Positions 1 through 10,562 of a stretch of DNA of 17,481 nt are shown one piece after another. Source of the stretch: Phormidesmis priestleyi (GTDB lineage Bacteria > Cyanobacteriota > Cyanobacteriia > Phormidesmidales > Phormidesmidaceae); contig QBMP01000018.1 of NCBI GenBank assembly GCA_003242115.1, forward strand, positions 12,498 to 29,978, written 5' to 3'. Position 1 is the first letter of the stretch. The number at the start of each line of letters is the position of its first letter. The notes under the pieces were generated by a model, which saw only the letters and a list, made by a program, of their open reading frames with translations, was not told where the DNA came from and did not search any database. The position numbers were made by a program, and so were the translations under genes.

Positions 1-1438
1 CTTTCTTACCTTGAATCATCGCAAAAACAGGATTGGCATAGAAATCTTCTATACCAACAATCTCTACTTTTGAAGAGTACTCTTTCAAGCAAGATTGCGT
101 CTCCACAACATTCTGATCCATGTCAGCAGGATATTTTGAATATTGGTAGACTGTGGAAGGTACAGACACACGGATGACTCGATCAGCCATAAGATAGCAA
201 CTGAAGAACAAACTAGTCAGAACTAAACTTATCATGACTAGCCTGGGAATCGAGCGCCTGGATAAGATATAGCCAAAGGGAATTAAAAAGAATAGTATAT
301 TGGCTGCTTTCATGTATCCCGTATAGTGCATCATCACCGTAGGGCCAAAAAATAGGTAGAGGAAAAGAATAGGAAAGAACGAAAGAACAACGATAGTTTT
401 TTCGTTCAGCCCACTTCGATTTCTCCAGGCTTCTATAAGTGACCAGAATCCTAAGCCCATTAGAAGACAATAAGCCGCTATAGAAAAAGCTTCCATATAA
501 GCGCCTATTAAATGTTCGCCGAATATCTGATGTTTGAGCGTAATTGCGGCGAAAAAGAACTTCAGAGGCTCCCAAAATGGGTACCCTAAAATACCTGTTG
601 CCTGCTCTCTAGGCGAGACCGCGAAAGTAGCCTTGAGATAAATCTGCCAAGCCACGAAAATAACGCAAGGCAAGGTAAATATTATGGTTTGTTTGATCAA
701 CCTTTTCCAGTTCAGCTCTCTGAAACCATACAGATTGAAACCATACAGATTGTGGGCTAGAGTGAACAGTAGAATGAAGCCAGCAATTAGAATATAGGCC
801 TCTCTGGATAAAGCAGCCAAAGTAATAAAGATACAGTAGAGAATCGGGTTCTGACTCAGATAAGAGACTATCGAGAGAATCAGTAAGCCATCTGCTGCTG
901 CGTCAGGCAATCCGTTTAAAAGCGTCAGCTGAGTACCAATGCCTACTCCCCAAAATAAGGAAATCCAAGGAGAAAACCCTTGAATCTGTATCCAAACTGA
1001 TAGAACATACGTCGCCGTAACAACTATGATGAAGCTTGCCAGGTAATAAACCGTTGGACTGACCCAGCTCTTGCCCAAAATTACAGATAAACTTTTAGCG
1101 AGTAAAGGAAGGCCAATTCTTTGATAGCGATAGGCATCTGCATCAATGTGTTCAGCAGTATCTTTCTGGGCAAGTAAGTCGTTAGAAATATAGTAGTAGA
1201 ACTGTCCATCCCAACCGGTTTCACCAGGATACAGATAGAGAGGCTCAAATCCTTTGGCTGCGATCTCCTCTGGAACTCCAAACATTGCTCCAGGCAGCAC
1301 GTGCCAGTTTATGTTTCCTCTTATCTCTCCTCCCATATAGCAGAAAAGATAAAGCGCCGCGATGGTAGCTACTGCTAACGACACTAGAAAAGGCCGGACT
1401 TGGAAGAGGGCTGAAAAACGCCCTTTAAATAAATTCAT
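1..1438 (-). CDS. GT-C-like multi-pass membrane protein, partial (3' end beyond window)
   Basis: One uninterrupted frame runs from an ATG at 1438-1436 off the left edge, giving 479 codons without a stop. The product is a multi-pass membrane protein with hydrophobic segments starting around residues 17-35, followed by a loop holding GWDGQFYYY (residues 75-83) and YRYQRIGLPLLA (about 102-113). From memory, DGQFYY plus YRYxRixxPLLA marks a large family of bacterial integral membrane proteins thought to be GT-C glycosyltransferases, with the loop Asp (D77) as candidate catalytic residue. The start overlaps the stop of the HAD gene by 4 bp (ATGA), so translation is probably coupled and the start is secure. 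Last gene of the operon inside the window. It carries an in-frame 15-bp duplication (NLYGF twice). Donor, acceptor and the C-terminus are unknown. Confidence 0.8.
   Translation of the reverse strand, partial: MNLFKGRFSALFQVRPFLVSLAVATIAALYLFCYMGGEIRGNINWHVLPGAMFGVPEEIAAKGFEPLYLYPGETGWDGQFYYYISNDLLAQKDTAEHIDADAYRYQRIGLPLLAKSLSVILGKSWVSPTVYYLASFIIVVTATYVLSVWIQIQGFSPWISLFWGVGIGTQLTLLNGLPDAAADGLLILSIVSYLSQNPILYCIFITLAALSREAYILIAGFILLFTLAHNLYGFNLYGFRELNWKRLIKQTIIFTLPCVIFVAWQIYLKATFAVSPREQATGILGYPFWEPLKFFFAAITLKHQIFGEHLIGAYMEAFSIAAYCLLMGLGFWSLIEAWRNRSGLNEKTIVVLSFFPILFLYLFFGPTVMMHYTGYMKAANILFFLIPFGYILSRRSIPRLVMISLVLTSLFFSCYLMADRVIRVSVPSTVYQYSKYPADMDQNVVETQSCLKEYSSKVEIVGIEDFYANPVFAMIQGKK
721..752. 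repeat. In-frame 15-bp tandem duplication in membrane protein gene
   Basis: The unit GAAACCATACAGATT occurs twice head to tail (722-736 and 737-751), and the match extends one base on each side. On the minus strand it encodes NLYGF-NLYGF. The frame is kept, so it looks like a recent slippage duplication tolerated by the protein. Confidence 0.9.
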
Positions 1439-2229
1439 TTGGCAATATTTTTGACTGTAGTGAGTTCTGGTGTTTGGTCTGAAAGGATTTTCTGCAAAGT
1501 ATACTCATGCAGCTCCAAGAATGAACTAAAGGCATAGTCTGGAGCATCTTTGCCAGAGCCGATCTTCAGATCTCCGTGAACCTTTTGAAAGGTTACTGCA
1601 CCGATAGTCTTTCCCCCTCGAATGTCTGCCGAAGGGCTGTCTCCTATCATCCAAACTTGACCGTCGTTTGCATTAACCTTTAATTTATCTAAGACTAATT
1701 CAAAGTTTCGTTTGTCAGGTTTATCTGCTCCTACTTCTTCTGAGGTGACAACGGCATCGAAAGTTTCTTCTAATCGAAAATGGGTTAGCTTGCGCAGTTG
1801 CACATGAGCAGTTAGGTCTGTGACAATGGCAATTGGGACGCTTTGGCGACGTAATAACTGTAAAAACTCAACCACCCCTGGGAACAAGGGCGCATTGACA
1901 AGAAAGGTACGCCAGAAAGTTTGTTCTAGATCCAGAGCAATTAGGAGCTGGGCTTTAAACCCTAAAATCTCTAGCATCCTCTGGAAATAGAGTAACCGGT
2001 TGTGGCTACTAGCAGTATGCCCTAATCGGACTTTTACGTCTTGACGAGCCTGCTTGAAAGCGGCTTTATAGATGTCGGATGATATGCCAAGCAGATTGCC
2101 AGCCTTACGCTCAGCCGCCTGATTTGCAATATGATTGGCTGGGCCGTAGTCATACAGAGTATTATCTGTGTCAAACAAAACTGTGATTGGCCTAGTTAAA
2201 AGTACCTCTGAATTAATGTGCTTAAGCAT
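1435..2229 (-). CDS. HAD-superfamily hydrolase (phosphatase)
   Basis: A 264-residue soluble protein with the full HAD motif set: motif I FDTDNTLY with nucleophile D20 and acid/base D22, motif II VTD (T137), motif III Lys in ADKPDKRNF (K170), and motif IV GDSPSAD (D197, D202). Residues about 25-115 form a helical cap of the C1 type, as in subfamily I phosphatases such as YjjG and phosphoglycolate phosphatase-like enzymes. It probably removes phosphate from a small phosphorylated metabolite. Given the neighbours (aldolase, PRK-like kinase domain, nucleotidyltransferase) this may be a sugar or polyol phosphate, but the substrate cannot be read from sequence. Its ATG shares one base with the stop of the upstream fusion gene (TAATG), and its stop overlaps the next start (ATGA), so it is translationally coupled on both sides. 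Confidence 0.88.
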   Translation of the reverse strand: MLKHINSEVLLTRPITVLFDTDNTLYDYGPANHIANQAAERKAGNLLGISSDIYKAAFKQARQDVKVRLGHTASSHNRLLYFQRMLEILGFKAQLLIALDLEQTFWRTFLVNAPLFPGVVEFLQLLRRQSVPIAIVTDLTAHVQLRKLTHFRLEETFDAVVTSEEVGADKPDKRNFELVLDKLKVNANDGQVWMIGDSPSADIRGGKTIGAVTFQKVHGDLKIGSGKDAPDYAFSSFLELHEYTLQKILSDQTPELTTVKNIAK

Positions 2230-4343
2230 TAGGACAAGCGCCTACCACGGTGAAGGACATCTGCTACATGAGCCAAAATAACCAATTGCATAATACCAGT
2301 ATATCCTCCAGCCCACAGTGGAATTCTAGCAACTAGGTCGTTCAGATTTGGAATTATGAGCGGTGCGATAGTGCTAATATCCTCAGATCTGACATCTCCT
2401 TCAATGGTAATATCGATAAATTCGAGATCTTCAGATTGCTCGATATCGACCTGCATGCCGCAAAGGGCAATTAAATGGCGTATGAGTTCTTCATGGAAAA
2501 AGCCATTGGCCATCTTTACTACAAGCTTCAGCCGTGGCGATCGCTGACGATCACTCACGTCGATAGGACTCAGCGGCGCTAACTTAAATATTAGTTCAGC
2601 GTACTTCGCTTGGCTACGAATAAATTTTTGACTGTCTTCGATCCGCTGGGCCAGAGCTAACGATACGCTCCCGTTTGCGTAGTTTCGCTCTGTTAGGTCG
2701 CGATGCGTTTTCCAAAAAAATCTGAGCTCATCATCAGTGTCCAAAAATATCTTTAAATCCAGATGCTCTCGCAATCTATGCAGATACAGCGTGTGCAACC
2801 CGCTAACGATTAGAAAATCTTTAGGTTTAGATGATGTAGGAGATGTGAACTTTTCGTTCTGGTGATTGTAAATTCTTTTTTTAACTGAAGCTCCATCTAA
2901 TAGAACCGAGACATCTTGAGTCAATTTAGAGAGGTCGTTCGCGTGAGGATCTAGATGAGTCTTTGTAGACCACATAGGGTGATGCCGTTCCCACTTATGG
3001 TAATCATCTCCAGAAATTGATGTTACGCCTCGATTTCCTAAAACATCTATAAGCGCATCAACGAGAGTATCTTTTCCTGCTCCTGAGTCACCGCTAATGC
3101 CGATAGCCATAGGCTTACGGCTAGCCCGATAGTAACCGTTTCGCCGAACTCCAAAGATATACATTCTGATGCATAGCAGAAGAGCAATAGAGTTCAAAAC
3201 AGTGAAACTCAAAGATTGGACTCTGGCGCTATCAACCCTTGTATCTAGTAGAAAAGGTCGACTGAGATCTAGCTGTAGAGACGGTATAGTTGCGCCAGTC
3301 GAATATGCCAAGCTATAGCAGACGTAAGCACCATAGAATAAGAAGGTCAACCAAAGATAATTTTGTTTAGCTTTAATCTGATACCACACTAGAAAAGGAA
3401 CGACCCACATGAACCAACCGCTAGCAGGCGGAAGCATTAAAAGAGTTGAGAAGAAACCTAGTCCGACTGAGATAATAAATAAATCGAGGGTAATTCGCTC
3501 AATGCGCCACGTCAGGTATAAAACAAGCATGTAAACAGGTGGCAAGAGAAAAAACTGCAAGCTGTCTCCGTAGCTTAATCTGACTTGAAAGAGTCGAGCT
3601 GTCTCCTTCGTTAATACCGTCATCTGCACGAAAGCATCCGAGAAGAGAAACGGAACGAACGTAATGGCAGCGGTGACAAGAATTGACGTTCCAACTCGGA
3701 TGATATCGTTCCTTAAACGGTTGTTTCGGTATAGATATATCAGGAGGAAAGGGACAGCGATTAAAACGCTGAATTTACTAGATATCGCTAGGCCGATTGC
3801 GACGCCGGATAGAATAGGGCGATATGACTCTAGAAGATAGATGCCGAGAACAAGAAGAAATATCGGCAAAAGATCGACTTGTCCGTGCCAGTAAGCAATG
3901 TAAATGACAATCGGAGAGCACCAGTAAGTCGCTAAAAACAAAGTCTTAGGAAAAGTTTTTAGCAAAAGCGCTAGACTCATCAAAATTCCGAGATCGAGTG
4001 CTAGTGAGGTCAGCCCAAACCCTACCTTTGCTAACCACTGTATATGAAACAAATTATCCAGTACATGACCCAGCCCGGTCAGAGGAACATAGACCACATA
4101 CATCACAATCCCGTAGGGAAACGATGAGAGACTTCCCCCTTGAGACAAGTAGACTGACCACGGATCGGGGAAGGGCTGAGCAACAGTTTGAGTGATAAAG
4201 GGTATAAACCATTCTGACTGCGTTTTAGGCAATACTAGCCCGATCATGATTGCTTTAAGAACTAACGAACCTATGAATACAGGATGGTTAAATAGGGGGT
4301 TGAAGAAACGCTTGAGTCCGATTATAGAAAAGGAACTTATCAT
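2229..4343 (-). CDS. Fusion: GT-C-like membrane domain + PRK/uridine-kinase-like P-loop domain
   Basis: 704 residues in two parts. Residues about 20-400 are a multi-pass membrane region with a GT-C layout: an early loop with D60 (PFPDPW), then YWHGQVDLLP (151-160) and AISSKFSVL (186-194), as in GT87/PIG-M/DUF2029-like transferases. Residues about 411-600 are a phosphoribulokinase/uridine-kinase-family domain: Walker A GDSGAGKDT (418-426, K424), DDYH (446-449), LDPHAND (464-470), YNH (492-494), SGLHTLY (514-520), FWKTHRDLTER (543-553) and the Q-KYAE region (578-583). The order matches cyanobacterial Calvin-cycle PRK, but the acidic residue normally preceding GLH is Ser514. A PRK-like tail continues to about 650. 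The kinase probably phosphorylates a sugar or polyol, or has become regulatory. The stop overlaps the HAD start by 1 bp. The frame is open throughout, so the fusion is not a sequencing join of two genes in different frames. Confidence 0.85.
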   Translation of the reverse strand: MISSFSIIGLKRFFNPLFNHPVFIGSLVLKAIMIGLVLPKTQSEWFIPFITQTVAQPFPDPWSVYLSQGGSLSSFPYGIVMYVVYVPLTGLGHVLDNLFHIQWLAKVGFGLTSLALDLGILMSLALLLKTFPKTLFLATYWCSPIVIYIAYWHGQVDLLPIFLLVLGIYLLESYRPILSGVAIGLAISSKFSVLIAVPFLLIYLYRNNRLRNDIIRVGTSILVTAAITFVPFLFSDAFVQMTVLTKETARLFQVRLSYGDSLQFFLLPPVYMLVLYLTWRIERITLDLFIISVGLGFFSTLLMLPPASGWFMWVVPFLVWYQIKAKQNYLWLTFLFYGAYVCYSLAYSTGATIPSLQLDLSRPFLLDTRVDSARVQSLSFTVLNSIALLLCIRMYIFGVRRNGYYRASRKPMAIGISGDSGAGKDTLVDALIDVLGNRGVTSISGDDYHKWERHHPMWSTKTHLDPHANDLSKLTQDVSVLLDGASVKKRIYNHQNEKFTSPTSSKPKDFLIVSGLHTLYLHRLREHLDLKIFLDTDDELRFFWKTHRDLTERNYANGSVSLALAQRIEDSQKFIRSQAKYAELIFKLAPLSPIDVSDRQRSPRLKLVVKMANGFFHEELIRHLIALCGMQVDIEQSEDLEFIDITIEGDVRSEDISTIAPLIIPNLNDLVARIPLWAGGYTGIMQLVILAHVADVLHRGRRLS

Positions 4344-4353
4344 TTTATTAGGC

Positions 4354-6060
4354 TCAATCCGACCGAAGTTTTGTTACTAATGCAAAGTCTAGATATTCAC
4401 AAGACCCAGATTCTTTGATGTAATAATTATCCAACGATTTGGCATTAAGTATTTTTAGAACATGCGGCACGAGTGGCAGAACGGGGAAAGATTTTCCTTG
4501 AAACCTGTGACCTGAGAGAAATAAGATAGTCTTCCCAGAGGATATTTTTTGAGCTGCCCATGAGAGATCCTCAAAGAAGAATGAAAGTGTATTTCCGCCT
4601 ATCGGTACCTCAGTAACGTTTTTAGTTTCCAGCGCTTCAAGTGGCAAATAGTCTACGTATCTTCTTTCCCTAGTGACACCGCTTCGAGGATCTTTCCTCA
4701 CAAGGTATATCTCTGAAAAATCGAGTACGGTATCAATGTTTGAGAGTTCACCGGAATCATTTTTGTCTTGGACAGCATTAGCTACACACTCTTTTGCTAG
4801 ATTTGCTTTGCTTATGTTAGAGTAGTGCTCTATTTTATTCGCATAGCCCTCAGAGAGATAAGGCAGGTTGAAAAGCAGCATTCCGAAGACTATGAAAATG
4901 TAAAAGCAATACTTTAATGAACTTATTCGCTGATTGCTCCTCGTCACAGTTCCGACTAAAGTTGAAAATGGCAAAACTATTAGTGGAAACAAGTACCAGG
5001 ACAGCATAGGACGAGATGAAAGTATCAAAAAAGACAGAATATAAACTGCGCTACAAGCTATAGTCAGTGTTTTGTTCGAGGCTTTATAAAATAGTAAGCT
5101 CAGTAAAACTATAGAACCGAAGCCCAACTGAAGAAGTCCTCCGTTCTGAATCGCATCCCAATGCCAGATACTGCTGTGCAGACTGTATATTAATCTTTCG
5201 TATGAAAAGAAAACCTCGCCGCCTGTGGCAGCCTTTAGGTTAGACAGCCATATAGCCCCTCCTCCTGGGAATAGAGTAAACGGGTTTGCTAAAGCTAGCC
5301 CGACTGTAAAACCAGCTAAAGCCGATATAGAAGTCTGGAATACTTGCCTGAAATTATGAAGTGGTCTATTAAAGTAATTAATAGAAAAAGCTACAGCGGC
5401 GAACAAAACCATCGGAAATATGGTTAGTCTTATGCCGAACGATAGACCTAGTAGCAACGAGCTGAGAAAAAGCTTCACCAGCTTTACCTTATTGTTTTGT
5501 TCAAAACTACTTCTAAGCAGTAAGGCAACTCCAAAGAAAGCTAAGGTTGCCGGAACTATCTCAGGGCCAACGATCTTTCCGTACCACCAAGCTATACCCT
5601 GACTTAGCCAAAGCACAAGAACGAGTCTGGTAAACTTGCGATCGCAACCGTACTTAGAGGCTACCAGCAGCAAGGTGAATGGAATTGATAAGATACTAAG
5701 CAGATTTAGGGCGCGAAGACAATAAAGGCTATGAAGTAAGTTTTCATTGAAAAGATACAGGGTTAAAGTATTAATAATCCAGTAGGCAGAACCGTAGCCG
5801 AGTTCGTTTGGCTGCCAGAATAAGTACGATAACAATCCGTCACTTGCTATCTTCTCTACTCCACTTGTAGATATTCCCAAGAACAATAGTTCATCTGGTA
5901 CTGCAACGGGTAGAAAAAAAAGCGGTGCCGTTGCACAGATATATATGATCAGCAAGAGAATTGACGGCAAGTCATACTTCTCTAAGAACTTTCCTGTGAG
6001 TCTTGACTTACTGCTAACTCGCATCAGTTTCAATGGCTTAGAACCTACTCTACTATTCAC
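4354..6060 (-). CDS. GT-C family membrane glycosyltransferase (DE motif)
   Basis: 568 residues with about ten or more hydrophobic segments from residue 33 onward, ending in a soluble C-terminal domain (about 420-568). The loop after the first membrane segment has PDELLF with D56-E57, the acidic pair typical of GT39/ArnT/PMT-like GT-C enzymes, which transfer a sugar from a polyprenyl-phosphate donor outside the cytoplasm. PFTLFPGG (about 261-268) and a WY-containing periplasmic region fit this group. As called it starts at GTG (6060-6058), 3 bp after the GDPD-like gene; an in-frame ATG at 6024-6022 would give a protein 12 residues shorter, and no clear Shine-Dalgarno decides between them. The stop lies 10 bp before the fusion gene start. 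Its likely donor is the lipid-linked sugar made by the GT2/GtrA pair upstream (inference). Confidence 0.8.
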   Translation of the reverse strand: MNSRVGSKPLKLMRVSSKSRLTGKFLEKYDLPSILLLIIYICATAPLFFLPVAVPDELLFLGISTSGVEKIASDGLLSYLFWQPNELGYGSAYWIINTLTLYLFNENLLHSLYCLRALNLLSILSIPFTLLLVASKYGCDRKFTRLVLVLWLSQGIAWWYGKIVGPEIVPATLAFFGVALLLRSSFEQNNKVKLVKLFLSSLLLGLSFGIRLTIFPMVLFAAVAFSINYFNRPLHNFRQVFQTSISALAGFTVGLALANPFTLFPGGGAIWLSNLKAATGGEVFFSYERLIYSLHSSIWHWDAIQNGGLLQLGFGSIVLLSLLFYKASNKTLTIACSAVYILSFLILSSRPMLSWYLFPLIVLPFSTLVGTVTRSNQRISSLKYCFYIFIVFGMLLFNLPYLSEGYANKIEHYSNISKANLAKECVANAVQDKNDSGELSNIDTVLDFSEIYLVRKDPRSGVTRERRYVDYLPLEALETKNVTEVPIGGNTLSFFFEDLSWAAQKISSGKTILFLSGHRFQGKSFPVLPLVPHVLKILNAKSLDNYYIKESGSCEYLDFALVTKLRSD

Positions 6061-6063
6061 TCG

Positions 6064-6651
6064 TCAGATTGTCCATCTATCTGGAAGCTTTGTACAGACT
6101 GCATCTATTACTATACTTTCAGAATTCAATAGCTCTCGAATTTCGGTAATCTTCGCTGATGAATAGCCTTGCAATTCTGGTGAGACAAGGCACAGACGAA
6201 AACCTGCTTCTTTGAGACATAAAACATCTAACCTATCCAGAGGAAAGCGAGTGAATACGTCTATCCATATCCAGCCAACCATCCCTGTAAGAGAGAGCGC
6301 TGTTTCTATTGATTCATATTCAGAGACTCTAACAGCACAGCGGGACTCCCCAGATCTTGCAGTCTTTATCAAGAATGGAAAGGACTGATCGAGGAAAAAG
6401 AAGTCGTTGATTCCTCGTTGCGACATCAGCCCTAGAAGTTTATCTTCTAAGCCCTCCTCTTTTGTATTCAAAATTAGAAATTGATGGCCATAACCTTCTA
6501 GCCAGTCTTCAAATGCGATCGCATCTGTGAAAGGATCATGATGGACAACCAATTTAGAACCATAGCTGCGAATATCAACTTCTATGCCGTAGTTGCGAGG
6601 TGTTTCAGACAGTAACTCTAAAGTATTTCGACGATGATGGATGATTAGCAT
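6064..6651 (-). CDS. Glycerophosphodiester phosphodiesterase-like protein
   Basis: 195 residues, somewhat shorter than common GDPD enzymes (about 230-350). N-terminal motifs match the GDPD/PI-PLC-like TIM barrel: HHRRNT (5-10), which varies the usual HRG; GIEVDIR with metal ligands E24 and D26; and VVHHDP with catalytic-type H37/H38 and D39. The next strand has LILNTKEEG (59-67), with K64 at the usual conserved Lys position. No signal peptide or membrane segment is visible, so it is probably cytoplasmic. It may hydrolyse a phosphodiester, or act on a nucleotide- or glycerol-linked intermediate of the pathway; this is inference. It sits between the GT2 gene (53-bp gap) and the GT-C gene (3-bp gap). 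The altered first motif leaves activity uncertain. Confidence 0.72.
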   Translation of the reverse strand: MLIIHHRRNTLELLSETPRNYGIEVDIRSYGSKLVVHHDPFTDAIAFEDWLEGYGHQFLILNTKEEGLEDKLLGLMSQRGINDFFFLDQSFPFLIKTARSGESRCAVRVSEYESIETALSLTGMVGWIWIDVFTRFPLDRLDVLCLKEAGFRLCLVSPELQGYSSAKITEIRELLNSESIVIDAVCTKLPDRWTI

Positions 6652-6704
6652 GAAAATCTGTCCGACAAAACTAAACTCAAACCGAAACAGGACATTTGAT
6701 TAGC

Positions 6705-7421
6705 TTATTGATATTTTGAGTGGAGTCTCTTCCGCAGCTTCCAGGTGAAGTTAAAAGTTCGTTTGATAAATTTTATTTTAGCTCTCCAATTTATATTCCA
6801 ATGTGAAGAGCCATAGGCTCTCTGTCCAAATAGAACCTCGAACCGAACAATTTTAAGCCTGCTGTTAACCGCTTTGTAGTAGCAATACAAATCTAGCGAA
6901 AAATCATAGGGTGGGCTCTCCCAAGTCTCGAAGAATGTTTTCGCAAAAAGGTTAGGCTGGGCATTAACGTCCCAGAAGGGGGTTCCTAGCAATAAGCTAG
7001 TACAAAGGGACATACCTACCGTAAAGAAGCTGTCTGCAAAAGGACGACCATATCTTTTCCCTTTGACATACGTCCGCTCTGGACTACTGCTATTCTCTAG
7101 AATTGATAACCCACGAATGACGTCTTGAGGGTCGGTTTGCATGTCTGCATGGGTCCATCCTAAGAATCTGCCCTGAGCCGCTCGCAAACCGTATAAAATG
7201 CCATAGCCATAGCCCTGATTTATATCGACCCTTACGCTTCTCGCGAATGGATATTCCGGCAGCAGTTGGCTTAATACTTCAGAGGAGCCATCTATAGAGC
7301 CATTGTCTACTAAGATCACCTCTATATCATCGCGATGAATAACTTCTGAGAATCGCGCTAGCAAGAGCGGTAGGTTTTTAGATTCGTTGAAGCAGGGAAT
7401 GATAATAGAGAGCGTTTTCAT
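6705..7421 (-). CDS. GT2 glycosyltransferase, DPM/GtrB-like
   Basis: 238 residues. GT-A fold of family 2: SIIIPCFNE (5-13), VDNGSIDGS (38-46), and the metal-binding stretch HADMQTDP (D93, Q95, D97), which has the DxQxxP-like form of dolichyl/undecaprenyl-phosphate sugar transferases. It then follows the DPM pattern (FWDVNAQPNLF). The C-terminal membrane helices of GtrB are absent and the end is strongly basic, suggesting peripheral membrane attachment. It likely transfers a sugar from a nucleotide donor to polyprenyl phosphate on the cytoplasmic face. It lies directly after the GtrA gene (21-bp gap), the usual partner. The start is supported by a perfect AGGAGG ten bases upstream, the only strong Shine-Dalgarno I found in this operon. 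The sugar is not predictable. Confidence 0.88.
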   Translation of the reverse strand: MKTLSIIIPCFNESKNLPLLLARFSEVIHRDDIEVILVDNGSIDGSSEVLSQLLPEYPFARSVRVDINQGYGYGILYGLRAAQGRFLGWTHADMQTDPQDVIRGLSILENSSSPERTYVKGKRYGRPFADSFFTVGMSLCTSLLLGTPFWDVNAQPNLFAKTFFETWESPPYDFSLDLYCYYKAVNSRLKIVRFEVLFGQRAYGSSHWNINWRAKIKFIKRTFNFTWKLRKRLHSKYQ

Positions 7422-7442: not shown

Positions 7443-7850
7443 TTAAGCTTTCTTGAAAACGAAAAATTTCATCCCTAGAAAGTTGAGCACTGCTGAGACT
7501 CCCGTTGCAATAATAAATGCGATTAGGGTGTTGAGTTGTCCGAGCCGACCAGTAAGCTGGGCCAGTAATGATAAGACTACCGCATTAAGGCTGACATTAA
7601 CGGCTAGATTGAAACCGTAAACGGCACTAAACTTCACAACTTGAAGCAGGCTACCTGAGCCAGAGGAAAATGTCCACAACCGGTTGGCCTGGTAAGCGTA
7701 GATAGTGCCACAGATAAAGCTAATGCCTTTGGCTGTAGAGGGGTTAAGCCAGGTCAGTAGTACTATATAGATAGCTAGGTCAACTAAGACAGTGCTGCTA
7801 CCTACTAAAAGAAAACGCAGGATCTCTTCTCTGGAACTCCGGTTTCTCAT
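7443..7850 (-). CDS. GtrA-family membrane protein
   Basis: 135 residues with four membrane segments (about 12-32, 38-55, 70-92 and 103-126), the size and layout of the GtrA family. Characteristic residues are visible: RFLLVGSSTVLVDL near the N-terminus, YQANRLWTF after segment two, and NFLGMKFFVF at the C-terminus. GtrA proteins are linked to translocation of polyprenyl-phosphate-linked sugars and are usually encoded next to a GtrB-like GT2, as here. It begins 4 bp after the nucleotidyltransferase stop. No strong Shine-Dalgarno precedes it, so translation may be coupled to the upstream gene. Which sugar is carried is unknown. Confidence 0.9.
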   Translation of the reverse strand: MRNRSSREEILRFLLVGSSTVLVDLAIYIVLLTWLNPSTAKGISFICGTIYAYQANRLWTFSSGSGSLLQVVKFSAVYGFNLAVNVSLNAVVLSLLAQLTGRLGQLNTLIAFIIATGVSAVLNFLGMKFFVFKKA

Positions 7851-7854
7851 GACG

Positions 7855-9516
7855 TTAAGCCAGCGGCAGTGCTGATAGTTTTGGAGAGGTTTGCTGTGAG
7901 ATCAATCGGCGTTTACTTTTAGGAATCCAAGAATCGTTTTCAATCCGATAGGGATGACTTTGCCACTTGTGAAAGCAAGACTGCCAGTATTCAAAAGTTT
8001 TAAGGTCGTTGGGTGTTCCCCAGCAAATGTAATGATCGACTTCAAAGATGACGCATTTGTAGCCTAGAGCGATCGCATCATTGATACAGGTATCCACATA
8101 GTATTCACCATTAACCATTCCTTGACGCTCAACCATCCGCTCAAATGCTAGCTGAAATATCTGAGTCTCTTTAAATGTGAAAGTTCCGATAATAATAGGG
8201 TCATGCTCTGGATTTTGTAAAGGCTGTTTGACAGAGACTTGAGTGATGGAGCCGTTCTCTTCTTCTACCCATCCATACATCTCTGGATAGCGGACTGCGC
8301 CAGGATGTTCTCTAGCGACCCAAACTATGCAGTCGACATGAGTATCATACCAGAGCTGATTGAAGCGATCGCGATCAAACAAAACCGCATGATCACAGGC
8401 GCTAATAGTAAGGGGCTGCCTGGAGTCGATATGCGCCATTGCAGCGACGCAAGTTCTAGCTTGACCGTCAGTAACATCCCTTAGACCAGAGATTCCAACC
8501 TTAGAATCAGCATCAGAAAATGATTCAGTCAAAGATTGCTTGAGGTTGCTATTTCCCAGGTGCTCTTCTAAGCAAACAAAATGGTAGTTTTGAGTTCTTG
8601 GCAATGAGCGAACTGCCTGCACAACCATCGGTTCAGCTGACACTGAAATCAAAGGTTTAGGAAGCTGATAACCTTCTTGCCGAAATCGACTCCCTCGTCC
8701 TGCCAAAGGAATCAATGTAACTCCTGGTAAAGTCTGCTGCTCTGTCTGCTGCTCTATATGGTTCAACCTCACAAACAAATCGAACCATCTTCTAAATTCT
8801 TCGAGATCTTTTGGTGTACCCCACTGCATGAAGTGCTCAAGATCATACACAGAAACCTTTAGCCCCGCTTGTATCATCAAGTTGTAAATGACGCTGCAAT
8901 AATACTCATTATTCACTAAGACGTTATTATCTATAGCCGCTTGAAAGAATTGTTTAATGTAGCTACCTTTGGCAAAATAGTAAGTTCCGCTCGAAGCAAA
9001 CTCAGCAATTTTATTCGCCGTAAAAGGGCTCTTCTCCTGAATTTGCATCATCCACCCGTCTTTCTCCTGGATAAAAGCGTAGTTTGCACCGTGGAGAGAA
9101 TGCGGGTGGAAGTTTCTATAGGCCGGGACACAGCCATCAGAGCCCGATAGCTCTAACCAATACTTAAAGTGTGTATAGTCCCAGTAGCAGCTGAAATCGC
9201 AGTAATTAACAATGACAGGCTCATCATCGTCAATGTAATCAAGTGCCTGAATAACCGCATAAACAGGTCCCTTTTTGTGGGATGGAATTCCTAAAACACG
9301 ACCATCTGGGCAGTATCTTTTAAGCGTATCAACAACTGGAAATTTTTGAATATGATCCTGGTTGCAAATGAAGACAAACTCATCTTCCTGGGAAAACATA
9401 TCAATGACGTGGCCAATAATAGGCTTTCCATTTAGAGGAATAAGCGGCTTTGGAACAGTGTAGCCTGCCCGCCTAAAGCGCTCCCCAAAGCCAGACATTG
9501 GAATGATGATTTTCAT
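7855..9516 (-). CDS. Tandem two-domain sugar nucleotidyltransferase
   Basis: 553 residues made of two homologous NTP-transferase domains. Domain 1 (about 1-250): IIIPMSGFGERF (3-14) with PKPL (22-25), an acidic residue D107 in NYCDF, and an end signature QWGTPKDLEEF (231-241). Domain 2 (about 265-515): TLIPLAGRGSRF (267-278), PKPL (286-289), D375 in ACDH, and end signature CWGTPNDLKTF (498-508). Both keep the GxGxRF...PKPL nucleotide-binding loop of the RmlA/GlmU-like family, so both could be active. They join sugar-1-phosphates to NTPs to give nucleotide sugars. The linker holds a duplicated EQQT, and a basic tail follows domain 2. The start overlaps the aldolase stop by 1 bp (TAATG). Which NTP and sugar each half uses is unknown; one domain may be regulatory. 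Confidence 0.87.
   Translation of the reverse strand: MKIIIPMSGFGERFRRAGYTVPKPLIPLNGKPIIGHVIDMFSQEDEFVFICNQDHIQKFPVVDTLKRYCPDGRVLGIPSHKKGPVYAVIQALDYIDDDEPVIVNYCDFSCYWDYTHFKYWLELSGSDGCVPAYRNFHPHSLHGANYAFIQEKDGWMMQIQEKSPFTANKIAEFASSGTYYFAKGSYIKQFFQAAIDNNVLVNNEYYCSVIYNLMIQAGLKVSVYDLEHFMQWGTPKDLEEFRRWFDLFVRLNHIEQQTEQQTLPGVTLIPLAGRGSRFRQEGYQLPKPLISVSAEPMVVQAVRSLPRTQNYHFVCLEEHLGNSNLKQSLTESFSDADSKVGISGLRDVTDGQARTCVAAMAHIDSRQPLTISACDHAVLFDRDRFNQLWYDTHVDCIVWVAREHPGAVRYPEMYGWVEEENGSITQVSVKQPLQNPEHDPIIIGTFTFKETQIFQLAFERMVERQGMVNGEYYVDTCINDAIALGYKCVIFEVDHYICWGTPNDLKTFEYWQSCFHKWQSHPYRIENDSWIPKSKRRLISQQTSPKLSALPLA
8732..8755. repeat. 12-bp tandem repeat in interdomain linker
   Basis: GTCTGCTGCTCT occurs twice head to tail (8732-8743, 8744-8755). 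On the minus strand it encodes EQQT-EQQT (residues about 255-262), exactly in the linker between the two nucleotidyltransferase domains, where length change should be tolerated. Confidence 0.9.
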
Positions 9517-10562
9517 TATGCAGATACGCTTTCCAGTGACTTACGATATTTTTCTGCTTCCCAATTCATGAGCTCAGAACACTGCCCGTCGGTTAGTAAG
9601 CTAACATTTGAATCAGGTGATACCCGCAAAAAAACTTCCGCTTGAGCTTGCAGCATGGCGTCTGTTGAGCGAGAAGCGGATTCGAGTAAAACAACTCCTC
9701 TACTCGGAAATAAAGCATAGCTAGCCTTATATCCCCAGACTCTCTCAAACCGCTCTGCCTCTTCAGCAAAAGAATCCAGATCTCTAATGACTAAGGGGCG
9801 AGTTCCACAAAAGACGACATGATCAGGATAGGGAGGATTGCATTGGGCAAGCTTTAGGCTCCATGCGTCTGTCGCCAACGAATGAGTCACCCTGTTGTCG
9901 GGTAGTCGGCTGTGAGGAATGGCAGCTCTTGCCCGGTTTAAATAATCTCTATCGGCTGTTGCTAGAGGTCTGGGCTTGATATCGAGCCTCGCGCAGATTT
10001 CGTGATGCAGAGCTTCAGCCGTTTCGCAGGTATCTCCGCCCACCACCAACCCGTGATTAGCTAAAACCAAAACATCGCAGGAAGCAGTGGTTTTTAGAAC
10101 TTCATCGATAGCCCGCGTTAGCGGTTGCCCCGGTCGCTGATACGGAATCCATGCCCAGCTGACACCTTTGAGAAGCGCGGAGAGGTGATTCCGACTGCCT
10201 GGAATCAGAGACTGAGCGATCACAGATACCGGATGGGTATGAAGCACTACCCTATGGGGTATGAGTGCATGTAACGTCGTCTCAATCGAAGGCCGCAAGC
10301 CATTCGTATATAAACTCCGATAGCTATCTGCCCCGGCTCCAATATCTCGATGCACTTGGGCAAGATCTACCGGTACAAACACATTAGTCTGTGAGGCATC
10401 TGACAAATGTTTACCTGAAGCTTTGATCCAAAGCGTATCTTTTTCCTTTATGGACGTATTGCCCCCGGCAGCCTGAACGAAGAATGGGTTTGAGCCCAGT
10501 CGTGCAGAAACTTTGCTCAGGTCTGAAAGAGATGACTTCTCTAGTTGCTTTGCATTTGCCAT
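9516..10562 (-). CDS. Class II aldolase, RhaD-like, standalone
   Basis: 348 residues with class II (zinc) aldolase/adducin motifs: AAGGNTSIK (31-39) and KASGKHL (47-53) for phosphate/substrate binding, SIETTLH with candidate catalytic E94, and metal ligands H108 and H110 (HTHP) plus H170 (ANHGL). The GGNTS...LWxKASG arrangement and the PDHVVFCGTRPL segment resemble the N-terminal half of bifunctional RhaD-type rhamnulose-1-phosphate aldolase/dehydrogenases, but the dehydrogenase half is absent. Such enzymes reversibly cleave ketose-1-phosphates to dihydroxyacetone phosphate and an aldehyde. In this cluster it may instead build a sugar phosphate that the next gene activates (inference). It is the first gene of the left operon, preceded by a 388-bp non-coding stretch; its stop shares one base with the next ATG. 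Confidence 0.85.
   Translation of the reverse strand: MANAKQLEKSSLSDLSKVSARLGSNPFFVQAAGGNTSIKEKDTLWIKASGKHLSDASQTNVFVPVDLAQVHRDIGAGADSYRSLYTNGLRPSIETTLHALIPHRVVLHTHPVSVIAQSLIPGSRNHLSALLKGVSWAWIPYQRPGQPLTRAIDEVLKTTASCDVLVLANHGLVVGGDTCETAEALHHEICARLDIKPRPLATADRDYLNRARAAIPHSRLPDNRVTHSLATDAWSLKLAQCNPPYPDHVVFCGTRPLVIRDLDSFAEEAERFERVWGYKASYALFPSRGVVLLESASRSTDAMLQAQAEVFLRVSPDSNVSLLTDGQCSELMNWEAEKYRKSLESVSA

Follow-up and report, generated by a model that had tools for sequence, protein, structure and literature searches.

The window analysed here is a stretch of 17,481 nucleotides from the cyanobacterium Phormidesmis priestleyi (contig QBMP01000018.1, positions 12,498 to 29,978). Its gene at 2229..4343, located on the reverse strand like all other genes of the window described below, encodes a 704-aa protein in which a membrane glycosyltransferase of the GT-C type is joined to a kinase resembling phosphoribulokinase (PRK). 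This fusion is real and widespread, and it belongs to a seven-gene module that occurs in bacteria of several phyla and on plasmids, and that viral contigs carry in part. We propose, at a rough probability of 0.42, that the cluster is a glycan module in which the tethered kinase forms ribulose 1,5-bisphosphate (RuBP), or a close analogue, for a HAD phosphatase and an aldolase, and that the kinase is dispensable given a Calvin cycle.

The fusion and its kinase half

An earlier note on this DNA, made from the sequence alone, had described a membrane GT-C domain joined to a PRK-like kinase, and this observation is confirmed. The GT-C domain, with a PIG-M/ALG3-like fold, corresponds to 3132..4343 (fusion residues 1–404), and the PRK-like kinase domain with its C-terminal lobe to 2229..3131 (residues 405–704, plus the stop codon). 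Protein searches found 430 homologues overall, and 119 of the 120 listed are of fused length (649–729 aa). The GT-C half alone as a query returned 50 proteins, 49 of which are 569–706 aa long, the remaining one being encoded on a 1.6-kb contig. Two kinase motifs, scanned against named genomes, revealed 163 relatives; the best 80, from Proteobacteria, Acidobacteria, Nitrospira, Planctomycetes and other taxa, make up the locus set used below. The fused-length homologues, the proteins returned by the GT-C half and the 80-locus set rule out an assembly artefact or a one-off fusion, including the case, considered in the note, of a fusion limited to one assembly with its homologues split. Neither the fusion nor the module was found described in the literature searched, most subscription journals lying outside that search, and within this literature the note's statement that such a fusion has no described function holds. 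The gene is seemingly interrupted in a Regiella genome (L056), where the match is overlong, and it is in two pieces (L182, L183) in G956, a genome of the Rugamonas family, with the kinase motifs retained.

The solved folds closest to the GT-C half are those of glycosylphosphatidylinositol mannosyltransferase I (PIG-M) and ALG3, which places this half within the GT-C fold. The fold is shared with these enzymes at a sequence identity of 13–14%, whereas the fusion differs from them in being bacterial and kinase-bearing. The window protein matches Pfam GT87 with 27.0 bits, above the curated 25, and a GT87 match at E 0.01 was found in just 13 of 27 members. GT-C enzymes have an acidic residue in the first outer loop. 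Among the 244 aligned fusions, 189 carry Asp and 37 carry Asn at position 60, and D157 is invariant. The GT-C half likely transfers a lipid-linked sugar, as the note had suggested and as its solved relatives, which use polyprenyl-linked donors, support; that the donor is a polyprenyl-phosphate sugar is suggested by the GT2 and GtrA neighbours only. A Lys/Arg-rich linker after the last membrane helix, ahead of the kinase domain, suggests that the latter lies on the cytosolic side. The fused protein is probably a membrane enzyme attaching sugars to cell-surface chains.

The best NCBIfam family of the kinase is PRK (NF005655), with 190 bits, under the cut-off of 236 bits. On a midpoint-rooted tree of 53 rows, the GT-C-fused, viral, HAD-fused and other kinases form one clade of 41 rows with support 92/94, the HAD-fused P0224 being a long branch. 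The two PRKs encoded in the window's genome lie outside this clade, as do five shorter relatives, of which three bear the name uridine kinase; the divergent GT-C fusions L152 and L154 do not group with the main GT-C-fused clade. By these sequence comparisons, the kinase half is shown to be a distinct PRK-related subfamily. The note's preference for a PRK-like over a uridine-kinase-like domain is thus borne out by family scores and tree, and no unrelated P-loop family matched the C-terminal half better. Automatic annotation, which gives the database name 'uridine kinase', would make it a uridine-kinase-type salvage domain. The uridine kinase models, however, scored far under the PRK model, at 94.1 and 80.2 bits (cut-offs 180 and 220), and the tree separates the kinase from the relatives so named; the likelihood left to this explanation is close to negligible, and we reject it.

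The closest known kinases are the Methanospirillum hungatei PRK (5b3f) and the cyanobacteria-specific PRK (9qkn, 9qko and 9qkp), the latter being the title of the corresponding chains in the PDB. In contrast to known PRK, the fusion kinase is tied to a GT-C enzyme, falls into a separate clade of the tree, scores below the curated PRK value and carries altered Walker motifs, as described below. A 316-aa soluble PRK-like protein was also observed (L002, G000:C299); it groups apart from canonical PRK in the tree.

The same kinase subfamily occurs with other partners. Sixty loci were found in viral contigs: two hold a bacterial-type cluster, and 58 (L086–L143) a kinase of this subfamily. An aldolase match follows the kinase in 52 of the 58, usually in one open reading frame (ORF), which was confirmed with Pfam for L101, while in L139 the aldolase is a separate ORF; several of the six loci without an aldolase match stop at a contig edge. 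Downstream genes include a nucleotidyltransferase in 51, a GDPD-like protein in 50 and a small HAD-like protein in 33 of these loci, all three standing alongside the kinase in 32. An ORF of the NAD-dependent epimerase/dehydratase family is present in 40 of the 58, and the one tested (L089) is nearest to dTDP-glucose 4,6-dehydratase. When eight ORFs from eight viral contigs were compared with PHROGs, three matched a UvsX-like recombinase, a DnaB-like helicase and a clamp loader, and the contigs were therefore labelled 'T4-like'. A viral scan with P0206 as the query gave no match. One HAD–kinase fusion, P0224, was found. Five proteins of 478–496 aa (P0194, P0195, P0210, P0216 and P0220) combine the kinase with an N-terminal domain of about 200 residues that has an RxRPD motif and no Pfam match.

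Given the fusions to an aldolase in viruses or to a HAD in P0224, the role of the kinase is best read as soluble sugar-phosphate chemistry in common with these two enzymes; this reading replaces the coupling of phosphorylation to export proposed in the note. No membrane domain was found in the Pfam matches of these aldolase-fused and HAD-fused relatives. This finding stands against phosphorylation of a lipid-linked donor or a glycan acceptor at the membrane, which the covalent link to a membrane transferase would favour and which we hold to be very improbable; a lipid kinase is disfavoured on the same grounds.

Residues of the 244 aligned fusions were equated with those of M. hungatei PRK by sequence alignment alone. 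According to Kono 2017 (PMC5241800), the ribulose 5-phosphate (Ru5P) phosphate site of this enzyme comprises Arg59, Arg62, Tyr98 and His100; His55 and Lys151 likewise bind Ru5P, and Arg62 is described there as not universal among PRKs. The equivalents of Arg59 (R453, Arg in 228 of 244 fusions), Tyr98 (Y492, Tyr in 233), His100 (H494, His in 223), His55 (H449, His in 225) and Lys151 (K545, Lys in 224) are all present in the window protein. The equivalent of Arg62 is P456, with Pro in 212 fusions, and Trp occupies position 458 in 233. K424, D446, R453 and H494 are kept in 222 of the 244. In Walker A, GKD replaces GKS/T (D425), and the Walker B Glu before GLH is replaced by Ser/Thr (position 514), both changes occurring together in 207 of the 244. 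This pair departs from the PRK pattern, GK[ST] in Walker A with Glu in Walker B, whereas 53 of the 58 viral relatives have kept Ser/Thr together with Glu. A carboxylate seems to have shifted from Walker B to Walker A, where it may bind magnesium.

Partner enzymes and the proposed route

The HAD phosphatase (1435..2229) has the RuBP 5-phosphatase model (NF053830) as its best NCBIfam match, with 172.7 bits against a cut-off of 330 and 102.6 bits for the next model; all 18 aligned HADs match this model. The class II aldolase-family protein (9516..10562) matches PF00596 with 82.9 bits, above the threshold of that family, and scores 19.1 bits against the ribulose-1-phosphate (Ru1P) aldolase model (NF053831), the cut-off of which is 300. 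Position 94 of the aldolase is an invariant Glu, which fits aldolases; the corresponding residue is Glu in FucA and Asp in AraD. An epimerase in place of the aldolase is disfavoured by this Glu, a lead rather than a test.

According to our proposal, the module would serve surface-glycan assembly and would have spread horizontally. GT2 and GtrA would couple a sugar to polyprenyl phosphate and bring it to the outer side for transfer by the GT-C half. The cytosolic kinase half would form RuBP by phosphorylating O1 of Ru5P or of a closely similar 5-phosphoketose; the HAD would strip the 5-phosphate from RuBP, and the aldolase would cleave or remodel the resulting Ru1P. The nucleotidyltransferase, whose substrate is a guess, may activate a product for GT2, and the tether would hold RuBP production at the membrane module. 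Where a Calvin cycle already supplies RuBP, the kinase half may degenerate, with the other parts being preserved. RuBP as the product of the kinase is our best single guess, held at less than even odds. The wider claim appears more doubtful to us, namely that RuBP formation also serves surface-glycan assembly, with a PRK-derived subfamily, joined in bacteria to a GT-C transferase and altered in its Walker metal ligands, and in phages joined to an aldolase, that starts a Ru5P–RuBP–Ru1P branch and that, given a Calvin cycle, can turn redundant and degenerate into a pseudokinase. A xylulose side chain was considered as a possible product of the module.

A similar sequence of reactions is described in Sato 2022 (PMC9700705) for haloarchaea, in which a HAD and a FucA-type aldolase encoded in one operon convert RuBP to Ru1P and then to dihydroxyacetone phosphate and glycolaldehyde. 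As in that operon, a HAD phosphatase and a class II aldolase would here follow a RuBP-forming step. The RuBP of the haloarchaeal pathway is formed via ribose-1-phosphate kinase and an isomerase, in nucleoside degradation (PMC9700705), whereas here a PRK-like kinase stands in a glycan-type cluster, and both partner enzymes score under the haloarchaeal cut-offs.

Alternatively, the kinase may act on another ketose or sugar phosphate, as part of a kinase–phosphatase–nucleotidyltransferase route to a nucleotide-activated sugar that does not involve RuBP. The heptose pathway is a route of this kind. The co-occurrence of nucleotidyltransferase, HAD and kinase across loci, the fusion of nucleotidyltransferase with GT2 in L152, the Pro in place of Arg62 together with the Trp at 458 and the missing of every curated cut-off would all suit such a route. 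We consider it possible, though doubtful: the fusions retain the Ru5P phosphate ligands that are universal among PRKs, RuBP 5-phosphatase is the family nearest to the HAD, and the decay of the kinase in RuBisCO-bearing genomes of one family, described in the next section, would need another cause.

Kinase decay and RuBisCO

A kinase half was counted as decayed when at least two of the residues K424, D446, R453 and H494 were lost. Decay was detected in 18 of the 244 fusions and requires eight changes by parsimony on the GT-C tree. Twelve of the 18 belong to the window's clade of 26 proteins, two members of which carry cyanobacterial names. The 12 intact members of this clade are on average 49.7% identical to the window protein in the GT-C half, 54.8% in the kinase core and 58.2% in the tail; for the 12 decayed members, the mean values are 43.4%, 26.6% and 48.8%.

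Retention of the domain in the 18 decayed fusions, conservation of the C-terminal lobe in the window's clade despite the decay of the core and the exchange of the Walker metal ligands might indicate that the kinase fold serves the GT-C enzyme as a scaffold, a dimerisation unit or, as the note had also suggested, a metabolite sensor, and that catalysis is secondary. This is unlikely in our estimate, considering that the four key residues are kept in 222 fusions, that no other part of the 212 intact fusions outside the window's clade is as conserved as the kinase core and that relatives lacking a GT-C domain are joined to an aldolase or a HAD.

Returning to the proposed supply of RuBP, the distribution of decay can be compared with that of RuBisCO. 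Within the window's class, a search of one family with small, RuBisCO-bearing genomes, which we infer from genome size and class to be picocyanobacteria, found four carriers of the fusion among 201 genomes. All four are decayed, and the nucleotidyltransferase, aldolase, HAD, GT2 and GDPD genes are still adjacent in each. In the same phylum, four small genomes that lack true RuBisCO, one of them with a weak 70-bit match, keep the key kinase residues. Among 392 genomes of the Rugamonas aquatica family, searched with the GT-C half, 13 carriers were found, all with kinase motifs. Altogether, decay was found in four of five RuBisCO-bearing genomes and in none of 17 others (Fisher p 0.0007). The 22 genomes of this contrast come from searches that used the GT-C half or a decayed protein as the query instead of kinase motifs; a test that included motif-led loci (p 0.0086) is biased and is not relied on. 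RuBisCO status was determined with PF00016, presence meaning more than 400 bits; the exception is G710, where two fragments of 37 bits each, located at contig ends, were accepted as RuBisCO. G236 (70 bits) and G956 (217 bits) were counted as lacking RuBisCO, and G417 was dropped, having just the gene start at a contig end. The contrast is a pattern to test, not proof. A further case, motif-led and not among the 22 genomes, is a RuBisCO-bearing Nitrosospira metagenome-assembled genome (L081), in which H449, R453 and H494 are lost; it is the only change at eight key positions among 78 motif-led fusions, and it hits three Ru5P ligands.

RuBP formation is regarded as a hallmark of carbon fixation. 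If the kinase makes RuBP, PRK chemistry gains a second use beyond carbon fixation, and the decay in one RuBisCO-bearing small-genome family becomes a ready natural experiment. If it does not, the kinases nevertheless form a new subfamily derived from PRK, in which a metal ligand can change place, and the sugar pathway is open to direct test.

Several points weigh against our proposal. It leaves unexplained why a glycan module should need RuBP-derived carbon, and the curated cut-offs are missed for PRK (190/236), RuBP 5-phosphatase (172.7/330) and Ru1P aldolase (19.1/300), the aldolase being nearer to rhamnulose-1-phosphate aldolases. Arg62 is replaced by Pro, and the replacement of both the Walker A Ser/Thr and the Walker B Glu means that catalysis needs proof. 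The kinase is intact in the window's organism and in five other RuBisCO-bearing genomes, and a single event may underlie the contrast, the four decayed genomes all being of one family. Decayed proteins, which account for 11 of the 50 GT-C-led protein matches, are mostly metagenomic with the host unassigned, and decay in heterotrophs is therefore possible. Because kinase motifs served to find the 80 loci, intact kinases are expected there by construction. Among annotated phage isolate records, the viral kinase–aldolase query gave eight weak matches, none covering 80%.

Composition and spread of the cluster

The fusion, on which the earlier note had centred, is conserved and forms one part of the seven-gene cluster. 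Partners were counted by tblastn of the window genes against the best 80 of the 163 loci. The HAD was found in 78 of the 80 and the aldolase in 72, followed by the nucleotidyltransferase with two domains in tandem (7855..9516; PF12804 in two stretches) in 71. A GT2 transferase without a membrane domain (6705..7421; PF00535), presumably DPM1-like, is present in 67 loci, and a GtrA/DPMS-type membrane protein (7443..7850; PF04138) in 45. The remaining partner, a compact protein of 195 aa (6064..6651), is present in 74; its model (pLDDT 94.7) has the GDPD fold according to Foldseek (1zcc, E 1.3e-6), and no GDPD Pfam match was found in any of 20 members at E 0.1. This protein has an Asn-x-Lys motif, both residues being invariant in 20 aligned members, at the site where the Glu-x-Lys metal motif of GDPDs is expected.

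In the 50 of these loci longer than 21 kb, the HAD was found in 50, GDPD, nucleotidyltransferase and aldolase in 48 each, GT2 in 43 and GtrA in 30; all six partners occur in 27, and all save perhaps GtrA in 40. Six loci of Roseomonas, Pseudoroseomonas and Belnapia (L041, L055, L066, L071, L077 and L082) have no GT2 or GtrA match and retain the other four partners. The common gene order is nucleotidyltransferase, GtrA, GT2, GDPD, fusion and HAD, with the aldolase at either end. This conserved module is labelled piecemeal in databases, as 'uridine kinase', 'GtrA family' and 'NTP transferase'.

The seven-gene cluster is also located on an E. coli IncR plasmid and an Azospirillum plasmid; the window's cluster gave no megablast match in E. 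coli genomes. The GC content of the cluster in the window is 43.5% versus 53.3% in the adjacent sequence, and the fusion protein had no match in six listed genomes of the window's genus; the cluster was therefore probably acquired in this organism.

Two further genes of the window are not core. The accessory GT-C protein at 2..1438, which runs off the window, is AZOBR_p60025-like (144.3 bits, NCBIfam cut-off 150) and was found in nine of the 80 loci. The hydrophobic ORF at 4354..6060, found in one of the 80 and without a Pfam or NCBIfam match, is probably a further GT-C protein. In L152, a 766-aa ORF (5091–7391, reverse strand) joins the tandem nucleotidyltransferase to GT2, which suggests that the nucleotidyltransferase product feeds GT2.

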